From: Leptolyngbyaceae cyanobacterium C42_A2020_001
GTDB lineage: Bacteria; Cyanobacteriota; Cyanobacteriia; Leptolyngbyales; Leptolyngbyaceae
Reading direction: 5' to 3'
Assembly (NCBI GenBank): GCA_015272515.1
Contig: JACYLN010000007.1
Location: 62,001-126,000, forward strand
Length of the DNA stretch: 64,000 nt
Shown: piece after piece, positions 22,669-26,963 of the stretch
Position numbering within the stretch: the stretch's first letter is position 1
How the letters are laid out: each line of letters opens with the position of its first letter
Position numbers and translations under genes: made by a program
Notes under the pieces: generated by a model
The model's database searches: none
Seen by the model: the letters and a program-made list of their open reading frames with translations, nothing else
Told to the model about the DNA's origin: nothing

Positions 22669-23322
22669 TCATCCCGTGCCAAAGGTGCGATCGCCTGCGT
22701 CTCCAAGCCCGGGCACAATAAAACCCCGTTCATTCACATGTTCATCAATCGCGGCAGCATAAATACTCAAACTGGGGTAAGCCACGCTCAGCTTCTGCAA
22801 CGCGGGAGGTGCCGCCACTACAGCAATAATCCGCACGTTCGCAGGTTCCACGCCACGACTGGTTAATTCACTCATCACGGCTGTAATCGTCCCCCCTGTT
22901 GCCAGCATCGGTTCAGGAATCAGCACTCGGACTTGCGGATCAAACTTTTCGGGTAGCTTATTGAGATAGCAACTGGCTTCTAAGGTTTCCTCATCGCGAA
23001 CAAAACCGAGATGATAAATCGACGCAAGCGGCAGCAGTGACTGGGCACCGTCTAATAACGCTAACCCTGCCCGTAGCACAGGTATCAGCGCCAGTGGAAC
23101 TTCCGGATCGACAAACGTGGCGGGGCAGGAAGCCAAAGGGCTACTGACCGTGGCATCTTTGGTGGGTAGCCAATCTCGGATGGCTTCATAGGTGAGCCAG
23201 CGCCCCAATTCGGTCATGGCGGTGCGGAAGATAGCGGAAGGGGTGGAGGCATCACGCGAGATCGCCAACCAATGCTTGATCAAAGGATGAGGCGGCACAT
23301 AAACCCGCATTTGAAAAGTCAT
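22669..23322 (-). CDS. upp: Uracil phosphoribosyltransferase
   Basis: Salvages uracil to UMP using PRPP. 217 residues. The PRPP loop reads 'PMLATGGTITAVMSELTSRG', the uracil-binding C-terminus reads 'FIVPGLGDAGDRTFGT', and 'PVLRAGLALLDGAQSLLP' is the flexible-loop region. Slightly longer than the E. coli enzyme but intact. The promoter should lie in the upp-crtH gap. Confidence 0.93.
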   Translation of the reverse strand: MTFQMRVYVPPHPLIKHWLAISRDASTPSAIFRTAMTELGRWLTYEAIRDWLPTKDATVSSPLASCPATFVDPEVPLALIPVLRAGLALLDGAQSLLPLASIYHLGFVRDEETLEASCYLNKLPEKFDPQVRVLIPEPMLATGGTITAVMSELTSRGVEPANVRIIAVVAAPPALQKLSVAYPSLSIYAAAIDEHVNERGFIVPGLGDAGDRTFGTG

Positions 23323-23448
23323 AGCCGTTCGTCAGTCTCGGTTTGAATTGGCATCATCATACTCCCTTCACCACCGGATTCAGCAGTCAGTCCGAGTTGC
23401 AGCCAATAGGGTCTCCGAGTGACTTATTGAAAAATACTCGCAACAGAG

Positions 23449-23477
23449 TTGACATTTATTTTCAATAAACCTATAGT
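23449..23477 (+). promoter_or_regulatory. Near-consensus sigma-70 promoter in the upp-crtH gap
   Basis: TTGACA (23449-23454), a 17-nt spacer and TATAGT (23472-23477). The spacer contains the inverted repeat TTTATT-TTC-AATAAA, a possible operator. Predicted transcription start is an A near 23484. Confidence 0.7.
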
Positions 23478-23483
23478 GGTCTC

Positions 23484-23548
23484 AAGTGTTCTCCTCTCTG
23501 AAGGATCGGCAGGTGGGATTGGTCTAACTGACTGATCCCCTTTTTCTT
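23484..23548 (+). ncRNA. Candidate ~65-nt small RNA or crtH attenuator
   Basis: Begins about 7 nt after the -10 box at 23472-23477 and ends with an intrinsic terminator. The terminator has arms at 23515-23524 and 23530-23539 (10 pairs with two G-U), loop TAACT, then CTTTTTCTT. No start codon with a useful reading frame lies inside. Not recognisable as Yfr1 (no ACTCCTCACAC motif). Either an independent sRNA or premature termination of a long crtH leader. Confidence 0.5.
23515..23548 (+). terminator. Intrinsic terminator of the candidate sRNA
   Basis: 10-bp stem with two G-U pairs, 5-nt loop and a following T tract. Confidence 0.65.
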
Positions 23549-23777
23549 ATCTCTCTCTAAGCCCTACAGAGTGAGGACATTATCAAGGGCACAATCTGCC
23601 AATTGCCAGAATTAGTCCTCTTAAATTTGTTTATAGAAGTAATGGAATCTGTCTGGTTTTTGCTGTTTTTAAACTTGGTTGGGTCGCAGCTAAAGCCAAT
23701 CTATTGAGAATAAAATGCATTTACTGCCAAACTAGGCTTGTTTTTTGCTGATAATCCAGCCTTCTGTTTCTCCCAAA

Positions 23778-23843: not shown

Positions 23844-25418
23844 ATGTCGTCTGCTGCCCAAGAGTCTCCTGTTCCCATACACCCCGCTTTACAATCCAGC
23901 AATGGTGTGATCTCAGTGCCCACGTCCAACCAGTTTGATGTGATTGTGATCGGTTCTGGTGTAGGCGGGTTAGTAACGGCCACGCAACTGGCAGCGAAAG
24001 GGGCAAAGGTGTTGGTGTTAGAGCGCTACCTGATTCCGGGCGGCAGCGCTGGATACTTTGAGCGCAACGGTTACCGCTTTGATGTGGGCGCTTCTATGAT
24101 GTTTGGCTTTGGCGAGAAGGGCACCACCAATCTACTAACCCGTGCGCTTCAGGGAGTAGGCATGGAACTGGAAACTATTCCTGATCCGGTGCAAATTCAT
24201 TACCATTTGCCGGATGGTCTGGATCTCAAAGTTCATCGCGATTACGAAGCATTTTTACAGGAATTGGGCGATCGCTTTCCCCATGAGCGTGAGGGAATTC
24301 GCCGCTTTTACGATGAATGCTGGAAAGTCTTCAATTGCCTTAATACGATCGAGCTATTGTCGCTAGAAGAGCCACGCTACTTGATGCGCGTGTTTTTCCA
24401 GCATCCCCTCGCCTGCTTAGGGTTGGTGAAATACTTACCACAAAATGCAGGTGACTTGGCGCGTAAGTTTATTCAAGACCCCAACCTGCTGCGATTTATT
24501 GACATTGAATGCTATTGCTGGTCAGTAGTGCCGGCCGATCTCACGCCGATGATCAATGCTGGGATGGTATTTAGCGATCGCCACTACGGCGGTATTAATT
24601 ATCCCAAAGGTGGGGTGGGCGCGATCGCTCAGAAACTGGTGGAAGGCTTAGAAAAGTTTCAGGGACAGATTCGCTACAAAGCGCGAGTCACTCAGATCTT
24701 GACCGAAAATGGGCGGGCGGTTGGAGTCAAACTGGCGACAGGCGAAACCTTCCAGGCAAAACGGGTAGTGTCCAATGCCACTCGTTGGGATACGTTTGAG
24801 AAACTTTTACCTGTTGAGGAACTGCCCTCATCGGAAAAACGCTGGCAAACTCGCTATCGCAAATCTCCTAGTTTTCTGAGTTTGCATCTGGGCGTAAAGG
24901 CGGAAGCCCTACCACCTGGTACGGAATGCCATCACATCCTGGTAGAAAACTGGCAGCGCATGGAAGCGGAAGAAGGCACCATTTTTGTCTCTATTCCCAC
25001 CCTGCTTGACCCCAGCCTGGCTCCTTCCGGTCATCACATTATTCACGCCTTTACCCCAAGCTGGATCGAAACCTGGCAAACCCTTCCTGCATTAGAGTAT
25101 CAACAACAAAAAGAAGAAGCCGCCGCTCGCATCATTACCCGCTTGGAAAAAATCTTTCCTAACCTGTCAACCTGGCTGGACTATCAGGAAGTTGGCACAC
25201 CCCGAACCCATCGTCGCTTCTTGGGCAGGAAAGACGGCACCTACGGTCCGATTCCTGCTCGTAAACTGCTGGGACTGTTGGGAATGCCGTTCAATCGCAC
25301 AGCAATTCCAGGCTTGTATTGCGTTGGAGATAGTACCTTTCCTGGACAGGGACTCAATGCCGTGGCGTTTTCGGGCTTTGCGTGCGCTCATCGCATTGCC
25401 GTGGATCTGGGGTTGTGA
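23844..25418 (+). CDS. crtH: Carotenoid (prolycopene) cis-trans isomerase
   Basis: FAD-dependent isomerase that converts poly-cis-lycopene to all-trans-lycopene, needed especially in the dark. 524 residues. An N-terminal extension of about 30 residues is followed by the dinucleotide fold '[20 protein letters not shown]' and '[20 protein letters not shown]'. CrtISO-type segments are '[20 protein letters not shown]'-like (read here as [15 protein letters not shown]) and '[20 protein letters not shown]'. The C-terminal FAD motif is '[20 protein letters not shown]'. The other possibility is a phytoene-desaturase-like CrtO paralogue, but length and motifs favour CrtH. Confidence 0.92.
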
Positions 25419-26246: not shown

Positions 26247-26963
26247 TTAATCGGCAGTGGCGAGTTCCGTATTGCCACGGTTACGGCGGCGGGTTAAAGA
26301 GTTAAACAGCATCACGCCGACCGCCTTGATCAAACTGCCTTCTAGCTCTTTGAACATTTTCATGTTTAAGCCAAATGCATCATTGGCTTCATCCACAATT
26401 CGGTCTGCCGTCGCGTCATCCACAGGCAGGTCATTCATCGCCTGACGATATTTGTTTTTGAAGGCCTTCTCATCCGTAATGGTCTTGAATTCGTAGAAAT
26501 TCGTCCCTTCCCCCTCTACCAGGTTCATGCCACGTTGAGCAATGCCCTTGAGGATTTGCCCACCGGAGAGATCGCCCAAATAACGGGTGTAAGAATGAGC
26601 CACCAGCAATTCAGGTGCCGTGTTAGACACTTCCCGAATCCGAGCCACATACTCTTCAGCAGCAACAGAAGTAGCAATTTGCTCACGCCAGTTAGAACCG
26701 TAGTAGAAATACAAATCTTGCTCTAGAGCCGCTTTTCGATTCAACTCTGGAAAGTAGATTTGAGACACGATGGGATGGTTTTTCTGCCGCTCCATCTCCT
26801 CTTCCATTGCCGTATAGACAAAGTAGAGATTGGTAACGAGTTTTCGATAAGAGGTTTTCTCGACGGTTCCTTTTAAGAAACAGGCAATAAATCCGGTGTT
26901 TTCTGCCATTGTGTGGGACTTTTTAGTTCCCTCACGCAGCTTCGTTGCTAAATTACTGCTCAT
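26247..26963 (-). CDS. ho1: Haem oxygenase (biliverdin-producing)
   Basis: Ferredoxin-dependent enzyme that opens haem to biliverdin IX-alpha, the first step to phycobilin chromophores. 238 residues. The proximal histidine is in 'LREGTKKSHTMAENTGFIAC'; the distal helix is 'LLVAHSYTRYLGDLSGGQIL' with the Gly-rich kink. 'FYYGSNWREQI' and 'EAN(D)AFGLNMKMFKELE'-like segments complete the fold. Length equals the cyanobacterial HO-1 type. No bilin reductase gene is in the window. Confidence 0.95.
   Translation of the reverse strand: MSSNLATKLREGTKKSHTMAENTGFIACFLKGTVEKTSYRKLVTNLYFVYTAMEEEMERQKNHPIVSQIYFPELNRKAALEQDLYFYYGSNWREQIATSVAAEEYVARIREVSNTAPELLVAHSYTRYLGDLSGGQILKGIAQRGMNLVEGEGTNFYEFKTITDEKAFKNKYRQAMNDLPVDDATADRIVDEANDAFGLNMKMFKELEGSLIKAVGVMLFNSLTRRRNRGNTELATAD

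Follow-up and report, generated by a model that had tools for sequence, protein, structure and literature searches.

A compact transcription unit lies between upp and crtH

In the window, by which we mean the whole 64-kb stretch of cyanobacterial DNA that was analysed, the intergenic region between genes for a uracil phosphoribosyltransferase and a carotenoid isomerase carries a promoter-like site, a palindrome that overlaps it, a short conserved block, and a terminator-like hairpin (Table 1). A reading made from the letters of this DNA (the sequence-only reading) had picked out the promoter TTGACA-17-TATAGT, a 10-bp hairpin with a T tract about 65 nt behind it, and no gene in between, and all three are borne out. 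The promoter-like site has 11 of 12 consensus matches and is one of two sites with at least 11/12 in the window (0.68 ± 0.70 in 60 Markov simulations); the hairpin has 10 pairs and a loop of 5 and is followed by CTTTTTCTTA; and the interval between promoter and hairpin holds no ORF of at least 40 aa. Motif counts alone do not rise above chance (in 5 kb, 4 of each kind of element were found where 4.7 promoter-like sites and 6.2 terminators are expected), and the single-sequence fold of the locus is only mildly stable (z = -1.64). The promoter and hairpin pair is clearly above chance because it is conserved.

Table 1. Features of the sRNA locus and its neighbours (positions in the window)
Feature	Coordinates	Strand	Details	Basis
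upp	22669-23322	-	Upstream neighbour, uracil phosphoribosyltransferase	Named by sequence resemblance
sRNA promoter	23449-23477	+	-35 TTGACA 23449-23454, 17-nt spacer, -10 TATAGT 23472-23477	Motif scan
Fur-type operator	23449-23465		TTGACATTTATTTTCAA, overlaps the -35 box; 7-1-7 core TGACATTTATTTTCA at 23450-23464; strand unassigned	
isaR1 (very probable assignment)	23485-23545	+	Predicted sRNA of ~61-65 nt, +1 at A23485 or A23484, end in T-run 23541-23545	Ends are sequence estimates; start inferred from -10 spacing and onset of conservation
Conserved 5' block	23485-23498	+	AGTGTTCTCCTCTC, 14 nt, proposed base-pairing seed	
Rho-independent terminator	23515-23545	+	Stem 23515-23524 / 23530-23539, loop 23525-23529, T-run 23541-23545	Motif scan, covariation
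crtH	23844-25418	+	Downstream neighbour, carotenoid isomerase	Name given by the sequence-only reading

The unit is conserved across cyanobacteria and its hairpin covaries

Blastn with 23440-23560 as query found matches in 38 of 58 relatives, belonging to 25 of 42 genera, and in these 38 the promoter and hairpin are kept as a pair, which is the conservation check that the sequence-only reading had proposed. Among the 30 loci fetched (L001-L030, from the 40 blastn matches listed), TTGACA is present in every one, and AGTGTTCTCCTCTC deviates only in L029, at one position; the terminator stem varies freely. A scan with a pattern that included TTGACA, some of the palindrome, and the greater part of the seed returned at least 116 loci. 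In an alignment of 44 sequences, 13 of the 14 positions of AGTGTTCTCCTCTC are invariant, an invariance that is partly built in for the pattern-found loci (L031 on), because the search pattern contains 13 of these bases. The alignment (A1) comprises 44 of 47 dereplicated sequences (L052, L086, and L120 were omitted), and the ends of L011, L032, L055, and L060 were extended by hand.

The block could in principle be read as protein, since a short frame with a GTG start at 23486 and 13 codons is readable by eye in the window, and the RNA would then encode a small peptide instead of acting as RNA. In the relatives that carry CTCTTTAAGG (many of the aligned rows), the frame would end after five codons, while the block is invariant as nucleotides. 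We rejected the peptide, which is vanishingly improbable, as its frame is not kept among relatives.

The terminator hairpin undergoes compensatory change. In the 44 dereplicated sequences, 82.9% of its cells are paired, against 72.7% in shuffled alignments; 54 cells are changed on both sides, against 15.6 in shuffles; and the covariation score is 0.452, against 0.263 (none of 500 shuffles was as high for either of the last two measures). The true hairpin also exceeds all slid versions of itself in paired cells and covariation score.

A covariance model built for the family (R1) found matches in 93 of 386 genomes of the phylum at E <= 0.001 and, under these strict filters, none in the other 293; the match in genome G060 (E 8e-4) is probably due to chance. 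One genus, with genomes of 3.7-4.0 Mb, has a match in all five genomes, and in four of them crtH lies beside the sRNA (L177, L179, L180, and L181; six loci were examined, including the weak L182). The sRNA family thus spans many cyanobacterial genera, and the gene is real and well conserved. No copies were found in viral contigs with the pattern AGTGTTCTCCTCTCTN{0,4}AGGATCGGC (0 matches).

Three genomes (G057, G208, and G153) have two R1 matches each, the second of which is weak and may represent a second sRNA copy. In Microseira wollei NIES-4236 (L052:465-550) and in L119, the 5' block is tandemly duplicated (AGTGTTCTCCTCTCTCGTGTTCTYCTCT...), so that two seeds are possible.

The promoter overlaps a Fur-type palindrome

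The -35 box forms the left arm of the palindrome TTGACATTTATTTTCAA. Compared with the FurA box of Anabaena, given as AAATAAATTCTCAATAAAT in an excerpt of PMC4005646, the promoter matches at 14 of 19 positions (23452-23470), which makes it one of three sites with at least 14 matches on both strands of the 64 kb. A match of at least 13/19 is reached by 24 of the 30 promoters from the blastn-found loci; among 956 control upstream windows, 49 do so. The exact 7-1-7 pattern TGANANTNATTNTCA occurs at 10 places in the organism's own 5.55-Mb genome, the sRNA promoter among them, and these amount to 13 strand matches, against 3 for the reversed control, and with up to one mismatch the counts are 81+67 against 36+28.

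Zur sites resemble Fur boxes. Several of the exact places in the genome look Zur-type or lie within genes, so this motif enrichment is not by itself proof of Fur. Given the similarity of Zur sites and these Zur-like or in-gene places, the assignment leans also on the literature, where an excerpt of PMC12090762 gives the cyanobacterial sRNA IsaR1 as one case in which an sRNA is released from a promoter controlled by FurA; by analogy, the promoter described here would be under Fur control.

Two other sets of sites were seen. A second FurA-box-like site (14/19) lies in the crtH leader at 23699-23717 on the minus strand; the same leader in L002 has a 16/19 site, and the best site in L005 reaches 11/19. 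On contig C50 of the same genome, several TGATAATCATTCTCA-type palindromes occur between 9120 and 33337 (L305-L307), among genes whose translations read as CobW-, ThrRS-, amidase-, AraC-, and N-hydroxylase-like, and this group has the look of a clustered metal regulon (Zur or Fur).

The conserved block is complementary to the translation starts of sufB and petF

From relatives we collected the start regions of sufB, petF, sodB, and acnB, all four of them published IsaR1 targets, and measured for each start the longest uninterrupted stretch complementary to the seed between -40 and +5, in comparison with 658 background starts. Scored were 25 of 27 sufB (L210-L212 unused), 27 of 27 petF (L240-L242 unused), 20 of 24 acnB (L267-L272 unused), and 17 of 30 sodB sequences; the remainder had no start under the search patterns. 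Genomes counted as without the sRNA are those without a blastn match, and they include G037.

For sufB, a complement of at least 8 nt is present in 11 of 17 sRNA-bearing genomes, 1 of 8 without the sRNA, and 2 of 658 background starts (Fisher p 3e-18, a value that overstates independence because the genomes and species are related). In most cases the site reads GAGAACAC(T). It lies between -9 and -30 in different species, and such movement speaks for selection on pairing over plain inheritance. For petF, the 7-nt GAGAGGA, which can also serve as a ribosome-binding site, occurs in all 17 genomes with the sRNA; a 7-nt match occurs in 5 of 10 without it, and any 7 nt in 12 of 658 background starts. 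The sodB complement of at least 6 nt (9/13 with the sRNA, 4/4 without, 49/658 background) is not specific to sRNA-bearing genomes, and acnB, at the same length, shows no excess (2/13 with, 4/7 without, 49/658 background).

Predicted duplex energies follow the same division. In sRNA-bearing genomes the means are -22.9 kcal/mol for sufB and -26.3 kcal/mol for petF, against -14.7 kcal/mol for 656 background starts. In the organism's own genome, where the contiguous sufB match is only 7 nt, the duplex with sufB has -24.0 (1.4% of background starts are as strong) and that with petF -26.7 (0.5%); acnB has -14.9 (45.7%) and the single scored sodB -17.3 (20.9%). The excess at sufB and petF starts is far above background, and predicted seed pairing is strong for these two mRNAs.

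Nearer to the locus, the starts of crtH and upp have a seed complement of at most 4 nt. None of the ORF starts in the window (all ATGs in the first 60 codons of stop-to-stop frames of at least 120 codons) has more than 7 nt, and a heme oxygenase-like gene at 26247-26963 has only 5 nt.

Covariance-model matches at E <= 0.1 occur in 7 of 13 genomes classed as without the sRNA, of which only that in G037 (L327) was taken as real; we inspected the sequences of L327, L328, and L331, and the other four matches are confined to the 3' part of the model. The G037 locus (L327:584-642) is a diverged homologue beside crtH, with a changed seed and with TTGACA and the terminator kept. The sufB and petF sites of this genome are also weak, so seed and targets may have diverged together.

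The unit persists where crtH does not follow

The order upp, sRNA, crtH is the same as in the window in 102 of 146 loci listed; crtH lies downstream in 118 of 134 informative loci, those with sufficient downstream sequence (it is present in L033, L035, and L129), and upp lies upstream in 123 of 141. This arrangement bears on the second proposal of the sequence-only reading, in which the hairpin would act as a conditional terminator within the crtH leader and carotenoid isomerase would be made only when termination is overridden. The prevalence of a same-strand crtH downstream is in keeping with such an attenuator, as is the motif scan, which found no further promoter-like site on the plus strand from 23478 to crtH. 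However, crtH is absent downstream in 16 of the 134 informative loci, including 9 of the 29 found by blastn, and the promoter, seed, and terminator are intact there, so the unit is independent of crtH; an element exclusive to the crtH leader is ruled out by these loci. Translations of the genes found downstream instead read as, among others, lexA-, serpin-, PIN-domain-, and DnaJ-like. Further points against an attenuator are the distance from the terminator to crtH, which varies from ~1 to 629 nt (median 82.5), a single fold without an alternative antiterminator structure, and the 5' block, which is the most conserved part and whose complement is enriched at the starts of other mRNAs, those of sufB and petF. 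We therefore set the attenuator aside as very unlikely. There is an outside chance that in this genus the sRNA and crtH form one iron-responsive unit, because the terminator leaks or because the crtH leader holds a second Fur site, in which case carotenoid isomerase would respond to iron together with IsaR1.

The sRNA is very probably IsaR1

Rfam 15 was searched along the lines that the sequence-only reading had suggested, and no family matched: there were 0 matches in the whole window at the gathering cut-off and nothing meaningful in 23400-23580 at E <= 10. The locus would look new because of this, and automatic annotation would miss the sRNA. The proposal of a new sRNA of ~65 nt stands in its first part, since a stand-alone sRNA of ~61-65 nt is strongly supported, and falls in its second, as the sRNA is very probably of an already described type. 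The locus is very probably isaR1, an orthologue of the Fur-controlled iron-stress sRNA IsaR1, which was described in Synechocystis by Georg et al. 2017 (known here through citing papers).

In excerpts of these papers, IsaR1 of Synechocystis PCC 6803 is 68 nt long, has its transcription start at 3164320, and is conserved in cyanobacteria (PMC6202907); its targets include the major ferredoxin, SufBCDS, SodB, AcnB, and PetABDC1 (PMC8136909), and also ggpS (PMC6753628). Its strong induction by iron starvation is reported for Synechocystis PCC 6714 and 6803 (PMC5386190). An excerpt of a review (PMC13414033) names upp and crtH as IsaR1 targets, and these are the two genes that flank the sRNA here. 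We suspect that the review misread a statement of gene location and that the two are really neighbours, because they flank the sRNA and their starts lack a seed complement.

The likeness to IsaR1 is judged from published descriptions of its length, operator, neighbours, and targets. A comparison at this level, together with the missing Rfam match, would also suit an unrelated Fur-controlled sRNA, so far undescribed, whose neighbours and targets coincide by accident with those of IsaR1. Such a coincidence is highly improbable: the length class, the operator type, the names of the neighbours, and the overlapping targets all agree with published IsaR1, and the sequences form one family across many cyanobacterial genera.

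Carried over from the Synechocystis literature, the regulation by isaR1 would run as follows. When iron is sufficient, Fur-Fe2+ would sit on TTGACATTTATTTTCAA, which includes the -35 box, and block RNA polymerase. Under iron scarcity, Fur would leave and an RNA of ~61-65 nt would be made, stopped by its own terminator, and this RNA would shut down the synthesis of iron-hungry proteins. For the present organism, transcription of isaR1, binding and repression of its promoter by Fur, its induction by iron starvation, and its repression of targets are expected by analogy.

With this assignment the genome would gain a major iron-sparing regulator that automatic annotation would overlook, and the 44-sequence alignment and covariance model are supplied for the IsaR1 family. 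The natural variants (a duplicated seed, a diverged seed, and species in which none was found) offer a test of co-evolution between the sRNA and its targets.

Comparison with known sRNAs

RyhB of Escherichia coli is a Fur-repressed sRNA that depends on Hfq and spares iron by repressing the mRNAs of iron proteins. The predicted mode of action of isaR1 is alike; the likeness is functional, and no relation in sequence is claimed. Among cyanobacteria, PsrR1 (SyR1) and Yfr1 are conserved trans-acting sRNAs that also have conserved unpaired blocks. The sRNA described here differs from both, as PsrR1 has 131 nt and other targets, and Yfr1 is flanked by guaB and trxA in Synechococcus elongatus PCC 6301. 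Set against IsaR1 of Synechocystis PCC 6803, as far as the excerpted descriptions go, pairing with acnB was not detected in this clade and the sodB signal is not specific, whereas the two share a stand-alone sRNA of ~65 nt, a Fur-type operator in the promoter, a link to upp and crtH, complementarity to the translation starts of sufB and petF, and wide conservation in cyanobacteria.
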